Source of the DNA: Verrucomicrobiota bacterium
Lineage (GTDB): Bacteria; Verrucomicrobiota; Verrucomicrobiia; Limisphaerales; UBA9464
Length of the DNA: 64,000 nucleotides
NCBI GenBank assembly: GCA_017309115.1
Contig: JAFLEF010000004.1
Location: 124,001 to 188,000, forward strand
Reading direction: 5' to 3'
Shown: piece by piece, positions 1 through 3,945 of the stretch
How positions within the stretch are numbered: the first letter of the stretch is position 1
Layout: each line of letters starts with the position of its first letter
The notes under the pieces: generated by a model
What the model was told of the DNA's origin: nothing
The model's database searches: none
What the model saw: the letters and a program-made list of their open reading frames with translations, nothing else
Position numbers and translations under genes: made by a program

Positions 1-90
1 GGCGCTGGCCGCGAATCCAGCGTCCCATGAACCACCACGGTCGAAATCGAAACGAGGGACGGCGGTTCGAGTGGAGCGATCTTGTTCGGC
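1..90 (-). repeat. attC-like recombination site, partial (cassette 4)
   Basis: This is the right part of an attC site belonging to the leftmost visible cassette. Its outer core box GTTCGGC is at 84-90 and reads GCCGAAC on the gene strand. The sequence is identical to 1355-1444, the same part of the complete attC at 1317-1444. The other half lies before the window start. Confidence 0.75.
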
Positions 91-98
91 GAATCCGG

Positions 99-422
99 TC
101 ATTCACGTTCCTCGTGGTGAATGACGCTTTGACTGCTGGGATCGACGCGGACGTAGCAAATGCCGGTCGGTGTATGGATGCAGCCGTAAAGAGTGGGGAC
201 GCCGCAGAAACGTGAAATGGCGGTAAGACGCGCGGTAAGAATGGCCGTCCACTCGGGCCCGCGGGGCTCAAGGTCGATTTGCTCGAGGAGGAAGTCGAGG
301 TAGCTCTGGTCGAAAACACAGCGCTCGAAGCCCTGAACCGCAGCAGCCTGCTCGCGAACGGCGTGAGGCAACGAAGCGTCAGCCCGGATCGCACCAATAA
401 AGATGGCTCTGTCATTGTTCAC
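99..422 (-). CDS. Integron cassette protein, unknown function (copy A)
   Basis: This encodes 107 residues starting with GTG at 422; the stop at 99-101 lies 9 bp from the outer attC core box (84-90), the usual position for a cassette gene. The protein is identical to the product of 1453-1776. It has no signal peptide or membrane segment and contains an acidic, Leu-rich stretch around residues 40-50. I do not recognise the family. An upstream in-frame GTG at 458 lies inside the neighbouring cassette's attC and is unlikely to be the native start, because it is absent from the other copy. The function is unknown; cassette location suggests an accessory trait. Confidence 0.6.
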   Translation of the reverse strand: MNNDRAIFIGAIRADASLPHAVREQAAAVQGFERCVFDQSYLDFLLEQIDLEPRGPEWTAILTARLTAISRFCGVPTLYGCIHTPTGICYVRVDPSSQSVIHHEERE

Positions 423-439
423 GGGACACGCGAGAAGTC

Positions 440-566
440 GCCGAACGTCAGAGCTCACCGACCGCCGCCGGATGCGGGCGCTGGCAGCGAATCCAGCGTC
501 CGAGGAACCGGTTCCACCGAGCTCGGAACGGGCGGCGGCGGTTCGAGTGCAGCGATCAAGTTAGGC
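440..566 (-). repeat. attC-like recombination site of cassette 3
   Basis: The 127-bp site is bounded by GCCGAAC (440-446) and GTTAGGC (560-566). The inner arms GCTCACCGACCGCC and GGCGGTTCGAGTG are near-complementary, so either strand can fold into the long imperfect hairpin expected of attC. The cassette gene's TAA stop (561-563) lies inside the core box, which is typical. It is closely related to the sites at 825-951 and 1317-1444. Confidence 0.85.
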
Positions 567-806
567 CGTTGCGATGAGATGGAGTCCCACATAAATTCCA
601 ATGAGTAAAAGTCCGAGAATCGGCCAGAACACTCGCTCTCGCCGAACGAAAGCAGTCACGACCAAAGCTGCTCCGACAAATGGTAGCCAATACCGAAGCT
701 GAACATCGAGTGAACTGCCTCGCTCAGGACCGAGAGCGAACGGCAGGATAATGGCGAGAAGCATCACCACCACACATACTCCGCTCAATATCGGTCCTCG
801 TTTCAT
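561..806 (-). CDS. Integron cassette protein, small membrane protein
   Basis: This encodes 81 residues. There are hydrophobic segments at about residues 8-26, 38-54 and 61-79, so it is probably an inner-membrane protein with two or three spans and a basic start (MKR). The stop codon TAA is embedded in the attC core GCCTAAC, which ties the gene firmly to its recombination site. No family is recognised. Cassette 3 spans roughly 446-830 between core cleavage points. Expression would depend on an upstream cassette promoter or on readthrough from the attI side. Confidence 0.65.
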   Translation of the reverse strand: MKRGPILSGVCVVVMLLAIILPFALGPERGSSLDVQLRYWLPFVGAALVVTAFVRRERVFWPILGLLLIGIYVGLHLIATA

Positions 807-824
807 CAGCGGTGTGGCCGCACG

Positions 825-951
825 GCCTAACGAGGAAGCTCACCGACCGCCGCTGGAAGCGGGCACTGGCAGCGAATCCAGCGTCCGAGGAATTCGTGGG
901 CTCGACCACGAATCGGGCAGCGGCGGTTCGTGTGCAGCGATCTGGTTCGGC
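825..951 (-). repeat. attC-like recombination site of cassette 2
   Basis: The 127-bp site is bounded by GCCTAAC (825-831) and GTTCGGC (945-951). On the gene strand the terminal box reads GTTAGGC, a perfect GTTRRRY consensus. The inner arms GCTCACCGACCGCC and GGCGGTTCGTGTG pair imperfectly, as in the other sites of the array. Confidence 0.85.
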
Positions 952-967
952 GTTTGGGGACTTTGGT

Positions 968-1282
968 TCATTTGTGCTCGTCCTCGTCTGTGTCGATGTA
1001 GAACCCGAAACCGCTCATCGGGAGCGCGCAATCTGTGGGCCACTCCGCAAGTTCTTCGATCTCCTCGGGGAACATCTGCGGTGGATCGCCAGGCGGGTTG
1101 AGAACTGCCTCGCGAAGTTTGGGTGTCGCCCGGAGTAAGTCCACGCTCGCGTACTCGGCAGCCTCGGGAGACGCGGCTTCGACGAAAACGGTTACGTAAA
1201 AGCCCATCGGTTCGATGCACTGTGAATCTACGTCGCGCATGTGGAAGTTCGCTCCGCGGATGAGGACTCGGAACTTGGGCAT
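968..1282 (-). CDS. Integron cassette protein, unknown function
   Basis: This encodes 104 residues with ATG at 1282 and TGA at 968-970, 17 bp before the attC core box at 945-951. The protein is soluble and acidic, with a strongly acidic C-terminus (DTDEDE). The N-terminus (MPKFRVLIRG) looks like a beta-strand, followed by an FVEA...EAAEYA segment that resembles small hypothetical proteins common in planctomycetes and verrucomicrobia, but I cannot name a family. Cassette 2 spans about 831-1322. No catalytic motif is visible. Confidence 0.65.
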   Translation of the reverse strand: MPKFRVLIRGANFHMRDVDSQCIEPMGFYVTVFVEAASPEAAEYASVDLLRATPKLREAVLNPPGDPPQMFPEEIEELAEWPTDCALPMSGFGFYIDTDEDEHK

Positions 1283-1316
1283 CGTGGTGTGTCAATTAAT
1301 GGTGACGAGAGCCAGC

Positions 1317-1444
1317 GCCGAACGTTCAGAGCTCACCGACCGCCACAGGGAGCGGGCGCTGGCCGCGAATCCAGCGTCCCATGAACCACCACGGTCGAAA
1401 TCGAAACGAGGGACGGCGGTTCGAGTGGAGCGATCTTGTTCGGC
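1317..1444 (-). repeat. attC-like recombination site of cassette 1
   Basis: The 128-bp site is bounded by GCCGAAC (1317-1323) and GTTCGGC (1438-1444), which are exactly complementary. The inner arms GCTCACCGACCGCC and GGCGGTTCGAGTGG are also near-complementary. It is the complete version of the partial site at 1-90. Confidence 0.85.
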
Positions 1445-1802
1445 GAATCCGGTCATTCACGTTCCTCGTGGTGAATGACGCTTTGACTGCTGGGATCGAC
1501 GCGGACGTAGCAAATGCCGGTCGGTGTATGGATGCAGCCGTAAAGAGTGGGGACGCCGCAGAAACGTGAAATGGCGGTAAGACGCGCGGTAAGAATGGCC
1601 GTCCACTCGGGCCCGCGGGGCTCAAGGTCGATTTGCTCGAGGAGGAAGTCGAGGTAGCTCTGGTCGAAAACACAGCGCTCGAAGCCCTGAACCGCAGCAG
1701 CCTGCTCGCGAACGGCGTGAGGCAACGAAGCGTCAGCCCGGATCGCACCAATAAAGATGGCTCTGTCATTGTTCACGGGACACGCGAGAAGTCGCCGAAC
1801 GT
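1355..1802. repeat. Identical 448-bp direct repeat, copy B (duplicated cassette)
   Basis: This is the second copy of 1-448. It includes most of attC 1, the cassette gene and the right core box GCCGAAC at 1794-1800. It occupies the first position of the array, next to attI, where newly inserted cassettes normally land. Confidence 0.9.
1453..1776 (-). CDS. Integron cassette protein, unknown function (copy B, first cassette)
   Basis: This encodes 107 residues, GTG start at 1776, identical to the protein at 99-422. The gene is the first of the array, starting only about 23 bp after the attI/cassette junction core box (1794-1800). Upstream in-frame codons contain no ATG, and a stop appears soon beyond the junction, so GTG is the only plausible start. 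The function is not recognised. The position next to attI should give it the strongest transcription from any integron promoter. Confidence 0.65.
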   Translation of the reverse strand: MNNDRAIFIGAIRADASLPHAVREQAAAVQGFERCVFDQSYLDFLLEQIDLEPRGPEWTAILTARLTAISRFCGVPTLYGCIHTPTGICYVRVDPSSQSVIHHEERE

Positions 1803-1820
1803 TTAATCTACGACTGCCAG

Positions 1821-2008
1821 TCGTATATCAAGATTGGGGAGTGGTGTCATTGAATTCGCGGCAAGTCGTTCGAAATCAACCCACGTCTCGACGGGACGGA
1901 ACCCTCCGGTTCGTATATCGCGGTCGCCAGATCCGACCGACTTCCTGTTCGTAAGTTGTTCATGATGAACTGATTTTCGATTCGATATACGCCTGCCGGT
2001 TCGTATAT
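1821..2008. repeat. Three TCGTATAT motifs spaced exactly 90 bp
   Basis: TCGTATAT occurs at 1821-1828, 1911-1918 and 2001-2008. The last two are embedded in CCGGTTCGTATAT and the first in GCCAGTCGTATAT. An inverted copy CGATATACG is at 1983-1991, forming an inverted pair with the third copy. These could be recombinase-binding or repressor-binding sites; the role is inferred from position only. Confidence 0.6.
1957..1971. promoter_or_regulatory. Palindromic operator candidate, LexA-like
   Basis: TGTTC-ATGAT-GAACT contains the palindrome GTTCATGATGAAC. It resembles the TGTTC-N4-GAACA motif I recall for verrucomicrobial LexA, but the spacer is 5 rather than 4 and the last base differs. Integron integrases are often SOS-controlled, and the site is about 107 bp upstream of the intI start. 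Assignment is tentative. Confidence 0.3.
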
Positions 2009-2077
2009 TGGAAGCCGAAAAATGCCCTCCGGGTTGGACTGCCGTTGTCCCGCCACGCCGACCATCCTGCCCGGCAA

Positions 2078-2390
2078 ATGAATACGGAGCAGGCAATCCA
2101 CCGGCTGCGGGCGGTTATTCGAAAGCAATACAAAGCGCTGGCCACTGAATCGTCCTACGTGTCTTGGCTACGCCGGTATAGGGATGCCGTCCGAGGGTTT
2201 CCAGATACACTCACCAGCGAGCAGAAGTTGGAGCGAATCCTTACCGATTTGTCCCTCAAAAGGGATGTCTCGGCCAGCAGTCAGAAACAGGCGTTTAACG
2301 CCGTCTTGTTCTTTTGCAAGGACGTCCCAGGGCGCCTGCTTCTGGGAGTGGGTGCGTTGACCCGAAAAATCTCAACCGGAGAAGGTCTCG
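2078..2390 (+). pseudogene. intI: Integron integrase IntI, N-terminal fragment
   Basis: From the ATG at 2078 about 85-100 codons match the N-terminal SAM-like DNA-binding domain of integron integrases: an Arg/Tyr-rich first helix, SYVSWLRRYRDAV, an EQKLERILTDL segment and the family hallmark VSASSQKQAFNAVLFF. After about position 2340-2390 the similarity stops, and the frame runs antisense into the 3' end of the neighbouring recombinase. The whole catalytic domain with the R-K-H-R-H-Y residues and the IntI-specific patch is missing, so it cannot recombine. Orientation opposite to the cassettes is the canonical integron layout. The exact right end is approximate. Confidence 0.75.
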
Positions 2391-2442: not shown

Positions 2443-3708
2443 CTATCGCCCGGGCACGAGCTCAAACCACGCTACACCTTCGGCCGGGGTTACGAGGGCT
2501 CGGTAGTGCTTGTGGATCATGTTGGCGGAGTTGCCTGCCTCGCTCGCCACCAAGGCGGGGTCTCCAGTGACGGCAACCCGGTAGGAGCAGAACGAATGGC
2601 GCAGGCCGTTACGGACCCACTGAATTCCAGCGCGCTCGGCAGTCATACGCATAGCGTTCTGGAGAACCTGCCCCCCGGGCGAGGGGGGAACCACCGGGCC
2701 AGATGCTTTCGTGGAAGTTTCCAACCAGGCCTGAAGATTGGGCTGGATCGGGACGATCCTCCGGGAAGCGGTCTTTGCCTTACCCGCGGACACCACGATC
2801 ACGCCCTCCCCCAGCTTCACTTCCGACCAATCCAAGCGGATGATTTCCTCGGATCGAAGTCCCGCAAAACCGCCAATGGCCAATGCCGGAACGATTTCAG
2901 GGCGGGCGGAATCCAGCAGGCGCCGCATCTCATCCACGGTAAAGACCTCGGTCTCGACGGTTTCCGCCTTGGGCGCCGGGATTTCTGCGATCTCCTCGGC
3001 CAACGCTCGGGATACGTAGCCGGCGCGCCGGGCGAACTGGAAAAGGCCAGAGATCAGTCGCAGGACGTTCCTTCGACTTCGATTGGTCTGGTCGGCCAAC
3101 TCGGAGGCTAGGTAGGTGCCGATGAGAGCCGGGGTCAGTGAAGCGATCGGGCTGTTCCGGAAAGAGTCCGAAACGCGCCCCAGCCGGCAGCGAATGTCCC
3201 TGAGGTAGTGGCTGGAAACCCCTGCCCGCCCGCGATCCGCGAGGAACTCGGCGAGGACCTCTTCAACCGTACGGCTTGGAGCGTTGGCCGGATGGCGTGA
3301 TGCGAAGTAGGATACGGCATCCATCAACCCGCTTCTGGGCGGAAGCGCCGCCTTTGCCGCCAGCCATTCGTCGAGAGCGGCCAGGAGGGAGACGCCTGTC
3401 GGTGCGACCTTTTTACTCGCGGCGAGGAAGGTTTCCGCTTCTGACGCCGTCAGGCGAGCAGATTCCTGGCGACCCGCAGCGAGACTGCCGGCGACACGCT
3501 GCGCCTCAGCTTTAGCCTCTCCTGCGTCCGCGAAACTCCGGCGAACTCGACGGCCCTCCGCATCGTAGAAGCTTAGGGTGAACTCGGTGTATGCCCTACC
3601 GGCCACTGATCGGCGGCGAGAGTAAATGGGAATGGAGACCGACCCTACCGAGACCACAAAAGAAGCCGTTGGCTTCCCCTTCTTGCCCCCTTCGCGCCCG
3701 ACCTTCAT
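2443..3708 (-). CDS. Tyrosine recombinase / phage-type integrase
   Basis: This encodes 421 residues from ATG 3708; an in-frame TTG at 3744 would add 12 residues and is less likely. The protein has an N-terminal Arm/SAM-like DNA-binding half and a C-terminal catalytic domain: GLRSEEIIRLDW carries the first Arg, GLRHSF the His/Arg box and HKHYRAL the nucleophilic Tyr near the C-terminus. Such enzymes integrate islands site-specifically, commonly at tRNA genes. The gene starts about 60 bp from the tRNA-Ser 3' end, consistent with an island boundary there. It is convergent with the truncated intI and probably truncated it. The specific island family is not recognised. Confidence 0.85.
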   Translation of the reverse strand: MKVGREGGKKGKPTASFVVSVGSVSIPIYSRRRSVAGRAYTEFTLSFYDAEGRRVRRSFADAGEAKAEAQRVAGSLAAGRQESARLTASEAETFLAASKKVAPTGVSLLAALDEWLAAKAALPPRSGLMDAVSYFASRHPANAPSRTVEEVLAEFLADRGRAGVSSHYLRDIRCRLGRVSDSFRNSPIASLTPALIGTYLASELADQTNRSRRNVLRLISGLFQFARRAGYVSRALAEEIAEIPAPKAETVETEVFTVDEMRRLLDSARPEIVPALAIGGFAGLRSEEIIRLDWSEVKLGEGVIVVSAGKAKTASRRIVPIQPNLQAWLETSTKASGPVVPPSPGGQVLQNAMRMTAERAGIQWVRNGLRHSFCSYRVAVTGDPALVASEAGNSANMIHKHYRALVTPAEGVAWFELVPGR

Positions 3709-3767
3709 CCCGACGTTTGTCGGAAATCTGTCGGCAAAAATCAAACACCATCAAAAACCCCAATAAA

Positions 3768-3862
<95 letters not shown>

Positions 3863-3945
3863 GCGCCGGCAGGAGCAAACACGGCCACCGCCGCCCGGTC
3901 AAGCGGTTGGACTTCGTCCCGCCACTTCGTCATCCTGCCCGACCG

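Follow-up and report, generated by a model that had tools for sequence, protein, structure and literature searches.

The window analysed here is a stretch of 64,000 nucleotides (C46:124001-188000) from the 7.53-Mb draft genome of a Verrucomicrobiota bacterium, and its left end lies in an array of gene cassettes. From sequence comparisons, we consider it probable that the array belongs to a sedentary chromosomal integron with dispersed attI platforms that lack an integrase, which would be served in trans by the integron integrase (IntI) encoded on another contig, C3. The window would hold the attI end of the array, where the array's own integrase gene has been reduced to the DNA-binding N-terminus, and the leader at 1801-2021 would serve as the attI. 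The system is of a known kind, namely a sedentary chromosomal integron together with clusters of attC sites lacking integron integrases (CALINs); what is new is the integrase-less attI in multiple copies. The features of this end of the window are listed below, where the scores of the three complete attC sites are circular because those sites sat in the training set of the covariance model.

1..90, minus strand: attC of cassette 4, truncated at the window edge (covariance model, 86 bits for the piece; the whole site, C46:123963-124090, scores 133 bits)
99..422, minus strand: open reading frame (ORF) of cassette 4, identical to the cassette 1 ORF; longer frame from 458; no Pfam or NCBIfam match
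440..566, minus strand: attC of cassette 3 (146 bits; R'' GCCTAAC, R' GTTCGGC; boxes and fold)
561..806, minus strand: ORF of cassette 3, 81 aa; only weak Pfam and NCBIfam matches, below cut-off
825..951, minus strand: attC of cassette 2 (136 bits; R'' GCCGAAC, R' GTTAGGC; boxes and fold)
968..1282, minus strand: ORF of cassette 2, 104 aa; no family found
1317..1444, minus strand: attC of cassette 1 (133 bits; R'' GCCGAAC, R' GTTCGGC; boxes and fold)
1323..1799, minus strand: cassette 1 as a single 477-bp unit, with borders read from the sequence
1453..1776, minus strand: ORF of cassette 1, 107 aa; no family found in Pfam or NCBIfam
1801..2021, minus strand: putative attI leader (A-type), about 220 bp, with ATATACGAAC-like repeats, a TACGACTG-G-CAGTCGTA palindrome and a GATTAAACG^TT crossover; one of six copies in the genome
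2045..2506, plus strand: intI remnant, N-terminal SAM-like domain only; homology from 2078 to about 2359 (TIGR02249 and PF13495)

The leader sits between cassette 1 and the intI remnant, and its position, its crossover box and its copies point to an attI beside the first cassette. Five further A-type leaders occur at C95:2850, C36:40708, C80:569, C46:43379 and C46:40349. The copies are 78-83% identical (E 7e-47 to 6e-56), and the crossover box GATTAAACGTT is unchanged in all six leaders; it has six matches in the genome, all of them at these leaders, while its reversed control has none. In the aligned copies, homology runs only as far as the G^TT crossover, after which the cassettes differ. 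The roughly 3 kb upstream of each of the five further copies (2.9 kb for C95) showed no IntI homology, and a whole-genome search with the IntI profile TIGR02249 (315 positions, cut-off 265 bits) gave no match on C36, C80 or C95. The copy at C46:40349-40545 follows an ORF in the middle of an array, in place of an attC, and the C36 copy follows a gene whose sequence suggests htpG. The 28-base crossover region has no exact match among viral contigs. No sigma-70-like site directed toward the cassettes was found in 1750-2450, in a scan that covers one promoter type. We note that the palindrome GTTCATCATGAAC (1958-1970, minus strand) is retained, slightly altered, in the aligned A-type copies and is a candidate regulator site.

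The A-type leader is also found in a congener, G004, where two matches cover a 39-bp core at 85% and a third copy was read from the sequence. These are more divergent than the copies within the genome itself. The leader on G004:C134 lies between an array and a divergent intI, as in the window; no IntI above the cut-off was found in G004, the best scoring 92 bits. The search for the leader covered 59 genomes and found no match in the other 57.

The same gene 3' end precedes the leader in C36, C80 and the copy at C46:43k, and its last 50 bp or so do so in C95. This gene end carries a CHB_HEX_C_1 domain (tested in the C46:43k copy), its internal deletions differ between copies, and another copy of it, at C46:36058, is without an A-type leader. 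The four leaders probably descend from one integrase-less junction. The shared gene end is what would be expected if the leaders were instead a repeated element or promoter segment beside arrays, for example a mobile-element end that includes the 3' end of the CHB_HEX_C_1 gene. We think this improbable, since homology stops at G^TT, where different cassettes start, since the leaders in the window and on G004:C134 occupy the attI position between array and divergent intI, and since the intact intI described below has a different leader of similar layout, with repeats and a palindrome before the crossover. The start box of the first cassette bears on the same question: it matches the cassette's own R'' at three or four of the four positions in 9 of 11 leaders (4/4 in the window, C80, G004:C134 and C108; 3/4 in five), with 1/4 at C81 and no box found at C46:40545, and the first-cassette distances at C36 (866 bp) and C81 (655 bp) may cover more than one cassette. 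The leader copy on G004:C286, read by eye, has a first-cassette box that matches 4/4.

Cassettes would enter the platform as circles at G^TT (1800/1799, minus strand), with the attC of the incoming circle folding as a single strand. An excised cassette circle brings its first bases, TTRRRY, into pairing with the R'' at the end of the same cassette, and this relation was tested across the genome. The 60 aligned attC sites, less three partial rows and with two re-read across stretch borders, gave 59 sites; boxes were found by pattern, and a spacing below 1300 bp left 18 consecutive pairs. The start box is perfectly complementary to the cassette's own R'' in 14 of the 18, including all eight in the window's array. 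The mean match is 3.44 of 4 against a shuffle mean of 2.76, and the observed total was reached in none of 20000 shuffles, although the shuffles overstate the significance because some pairs share descent (C46/C108 and the identical copies). The four failures are at C92 (2/4), C81 (1/4) and C3 (2/4 and 1/4). Between R'' and the facing in-array R' of the neighbour, the pairing is perfect in only 3/18 (mean 2.39, shuffle mean 2.59). The own-box pattern is not expected of simple repeats, and therefore argues for true integron cassettes. On this basis the cassettes appear to be mobile units with G^TT borders.

Cassettes 1 and 4 are identical: 1317-1802 equals -37..448 over 486 bp, made up of the 477-bp cassette and the core-box bases shared at both borders. 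Similar stretches also link separate arrays. The first cassette behind an A-type attI copy (C46:43586-43998) shares 413 bp, at 94.7% identity, with C3:1884-2296, in the array of the intact integrase, and shared stretches of 413-627 bp at 91-95% connect C46/C3, C81/C3, C68/C75, C95/C46 and C108/C46; a weaker match joins C46:118635-119135 to C44 (84%). The cassette identity hints at recent movement. It also sits poorly with an ordinary dead integron, in which loss of intI left the array frozen and the leader copies are relics of past segmental duplications, without a present role. Such an integron would be consistent with the intI remnant in the window, with the repeated loss of intI in the family (remnants in G005, with three stops, and G013, with a frameshift), with leader copies of 78-83% identity whose upstream parts carry different internal deletions, and with the degenerate boxes of most attC sites on C44. 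We nevertheless find it unlikely, given the identity of cassettes 1 and 4 over one whole unit, the 413 bp at 94.7% common to an A-type attI locus and the C3 array, and the crossover box unchanged in 6/6 copies.

A PADLOC search for defence genes matched 0/10 cassette proteins at E 0.01. One protein farther left in the array (C46:122200-122529, L011:18200-18529) is SUKH-1 (SMI1/KNR4)-like, at 24.1 bits slightly below the Pfam cut-off of 25.4.

The attC sites were modelled from a seed profile of three window sites, after which 20 sites of the genome were aligned and modelled; in the genome search, the best 150 of 8295 first-look candidates were scored with an E cut-off of 0.01. At least 89 attC sites on at least 23 contigs were found. 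The window's array contains at least 12 of these, on the minus strand, over about 11 kb (C46:114496-125444), and reads away from the intI remnant. A preliminary description of the window, made from the letters alone, had placed three attC sites at 440-566, 825-951 and 1317-1444 and a fourth, partial one at the edge, and had the array continuing to the left; the model returns the same coordinates and the cut site at 1-90, and the sequence to the left carries the array on to C46:114496, about 9.5 kb beyond the window edge. With no complete intI nearby, the attC cluster has the form of a CALIN, and no complete integron integrase, with the IntI-specific extra segment, adjoins the array. One of the 12 sites is a short form of about 95 nt among sites of 127 nt (C46:119522-119617, L011:15522-15617; 42 bits).

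Both boxes were found in 18 of 32 profile hits, and these 18 are 124-128 nt long. The predicted layout consists of the R''/R' boxes, an unpaired spacer of 6-7 nt and then a paired arm, with an extrahelical base predicted once per three pairs, three times, in a single arm at 4-nt steps (columns 19, 23 and 27). Columns 31 and 104 are unpaired in the consensus, yet C-G pairing between them is feasible. Standard pairs fill 87.0% of pair cells in the 60 sites, against 28-42% with the arms slid by one to three columns; the alignment used, A2, was fitted to the L-arm part of the structure tested, not to the R boxes. The covariation score was matched by none of 500 shuffles of the 60 sites, a comparison in which related sequences can exceed shuffles even without structure. 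The sites in the window have the R''/R' boxes of attC, with a predicted unpaired spacer and predicted extrahelical bases. An Rfam search over the array gave no match. Across 39 genomes (own included), 16 IntI genes exceed the TIGR02249 cut-off, and 8 of these have an attC-model match on the same contig or retrieved stretch.

The TIGR02249 match of 2045-2506 is confined to positions 2-78 of 315 (45 bits), PF13495 matches at 43.6 bits (cut-off 27), and IntI homology in this frame stops near 2359-2368. A search of 51 genomes found relatives of the remnant at E 1e-4 in 16 (own included). The best is a remnant in G005 with three stops (55% identity), followed by the full IntI G005:C288 (42%, 276 bits) and by G013, where one piece (60% over 55 aa) is accompanied by another in a different frame. 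There are 13 further matches at 31-38%, of which the eight that were scored are IntIs above the cut-off. Residues 2-37 are matched at 64% at a contig edge in the congener G004. In the G005 and G013 remnants, IntI homology likewise stops after the N-terminal third. Third codon positions hold about half (48-58%) of the differences between the remnant and four relatives, an indication that the gene was still coding during much of its divergence.

A search of the remnant with BLASTP against the genome's own intact IntI gave no match at E 1e-3, which weighs against its identity as an IntI. It aligns weakly (31.6% over 79 aa, E 2e-4) with the tyrosine recombinase of an IS91-type element at C46:115025-115942, with which it also has PF13495 in common, and 2045-2506 might on these grounds be a piece of an IS91-associated tyrosine recombinase. 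We hold this to be very unlikely: its best relatives in the 51 genomes are an intI-like remnant and a full IntI, at least 8 of the 13 further matches are IntIs above the cut-off, and the search at E 1e-4 did not bring up the genome's own IS91-type recombinase. The same recombinase was considered as the missing integrase and rejected, as a Y2 transposase follows it and its TIGR02249 matches omit positions 180-239.

The whole-genome TIGR02249 search found a single gene above the cut-off, C3:5670-6764, which encodes an intact IntI of 364 aa (417 bits); a TAG flagged in the search is the gene's own stop codon. The protein can be aligned with IntI4 (2a3v) across 320 residues. The aligned part takes in two stretches, WLPHAL..KYPNAP and HTLRHSFATHLL...TTQIYTHV, which we take to be IntI hallmarks. 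The array beside it has the same attC family as that of the window. Its top five relatives, of 80 kept, all come from Verrucomicrobia metagenome-assembled genomes (58-67% identity). An isolated middle piece of IntI, 75% identical to it over 79 residues, lies on C29 (L085:416-655).

The leader of the C3 IntI is a different attI (B-type) with ATATACCGACAG repeats, and resembles the A-type in layout, with repeats and a palindrome before the crossover. It has three full copies including that at C3, plus two pieces of about 50 bp. The copy at C81:2972 is 94% identical, with no IntI found in 8 kb, and the copy at C108:8160 (84%) adjoins a short PF13495 match with two TAG codons. Both attI types are therefore multicopy in this genome. 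The B-type was not found in 58 other genomes searched. We rejected a layout common to the whole family: ATATAC/GTATAT occurs upstream of the IntI matches at only 3 of 20 loci (three times at own C3, once each at L018 and L102), in a scan of up to 620 bp upstream that included C3, where L026 and L105 are probably the same place and one stretch was only 38 bp. The layout may therefore be limited to the genus. A long GC-rich inverted repeat lies on the cassette side of the C81 B-type attI (L068, about 2825-2915), and part of it recurs at the start of C29 (L085:1-60).

These results bear on the remaining claims of the preliminary description. It had called the integron verrucomicrobial, in keeping with the relatives of the C3 enzyme; its divergent intI retaining only the N-terminus, with IntI similarity in the 2078-2390 frame, is seen in both profile matches, and none of the four cassette ORFs in the window has a family match above cut-off. 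Its chromosomal integron stands on the attC sites and the remnant, while the claim that it was frozen by loss of its integrase is weak, being made doubtful by the intact IntI on C3, the identity of cassettes 1 and 4, and the C46/C3 stretch, although these leave present activity unproven. It mentioned neither that cassette 4 is a copy of cassette 1 nor that the leader is multicopy.

The C3 IntI, or one that is unassembled, may act in trans on the orphan attI sites, and arrays at several loci could thus be fed by one enzyme. Of the explanations for the sequence pattern, service in trans from C3 is the likeliest. Somewhat short of an even case, and put forward tentatively, is a fully distributed integron, in which integrase-less attI platforms at separate chromosomal loci, of two sequence types, would each build up an array of their own and all be served by one trans-acting integrase. 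Several points weigh against dispersed platforms served from C3. The chief weakness is the draft assembly, in 111 contigs (completeness 95.3%, contamination 3.69%); 14 of the 20 attC contigs of known length have an attC less than 3 kb from a contig end, and for both reasons it is possible that the cognate IntI is unassembled. C3 could be mis-binned. The intact IntI adjoins a B-type attI, not an A-type one, and an integrase is expected to prefer its own attI. With only 78-83% identity among them, the A-type copies multiplied long ago, and the process need not still be running; 7 of 11 first cassettes are imperfect at the box; and the identical cassette could be a duplicate older than the local loss of intI, or an assembly error.

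Integrons are described as one integrase with one attI and one array. The window's array resembles a sedentary chromosomal integron in its attC array of small, mostly unrecognised genes, its single attC family and an attI placed by the divergent intI, but differs in that the local intI is an N-terminus only and that there are several attI copies per genome; a passage in PMC9024848 describes integrons as typically having one attI close to the integrase. Like CALINs, the arrays have no complete adjoining IntI gene; unlike them, they keep their own attI. Several origins of CALINs, including intI loss and rearrangement, have been proposed (PMC8618304), and attI outside class 1 goes undetected by IntegronFinder, the standard tool (PMC9024848). 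In the Delta-attI cassettes of mobile integrons, shown in PMC12901181 to be functional with IntI1, an attI likewise stands in the place of an attC, as it putatively does, by position, at C46:40349-40545; here, in contrast, about 220 bp of leader are present, on a chromosome, at separate loci, in an environmental genome. Xanthomonas offers stable arrays kept after inactivation of intI. There, intI loss is widespread and arrays are retained, with attI multiplication absent from the abstract (PMC12444791), whereas here cassette identity hints at recent movement. Among open-access titles and abstracts, we found no report of several attI copies per chromosome. Here, attI is exposed directly by its repetition within a single genome, and CALIN-like arrays can carry their own landing site. 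Trans-acting integrases, and more than one leading cassette at a time, thereby become testable. If the integron is indeed distributed, the genome could express several 'first cassettes' simultaneously rather than one.

Two further features lie to the right of the array.

2443..3744, minus strand: unrelated tyrosine recombinase, 433 aa (PF00589), which abuts the remnant with its 3' end and adjoins tRNA-Ser
3770..3862, minus strand: tRNA-Ser(GCT), from a tRNA search

Together (2443-3862) they have the layout of an integrative island. An island bounded by the tRNA and spanning the array was rejected, as outside the tRNA no stretch of at least 12 bases from window 3761-3830 has a same-strand repeat in C46:44001-188000 (144 kb). 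Homology of C46 to the congeners G001, G003 and G004 begins no earlier than metG (window 3937-3945). All three thus lack, at that place, the block to the left of metG; a clean empty site is not readable.

Two IS91-type elements lie inside the window's array, left of the window edge. The first (C46:115025-117183, L011:11025-13183) comprises the tyrosine recombinase discussed above and then a Y2 transposase with an internal stop. The second (C46:119733-120884, L011:15733-16884) is a lone 383-aa Y2 transposase matching PF04986 and PF14319, and thus has both the Y2 transposase and the zinc-binding domain of the IS91 family. Stretches related to these elements occur on C10, on C44 and at the ends of C54 and C72, three of which are attC contigs.

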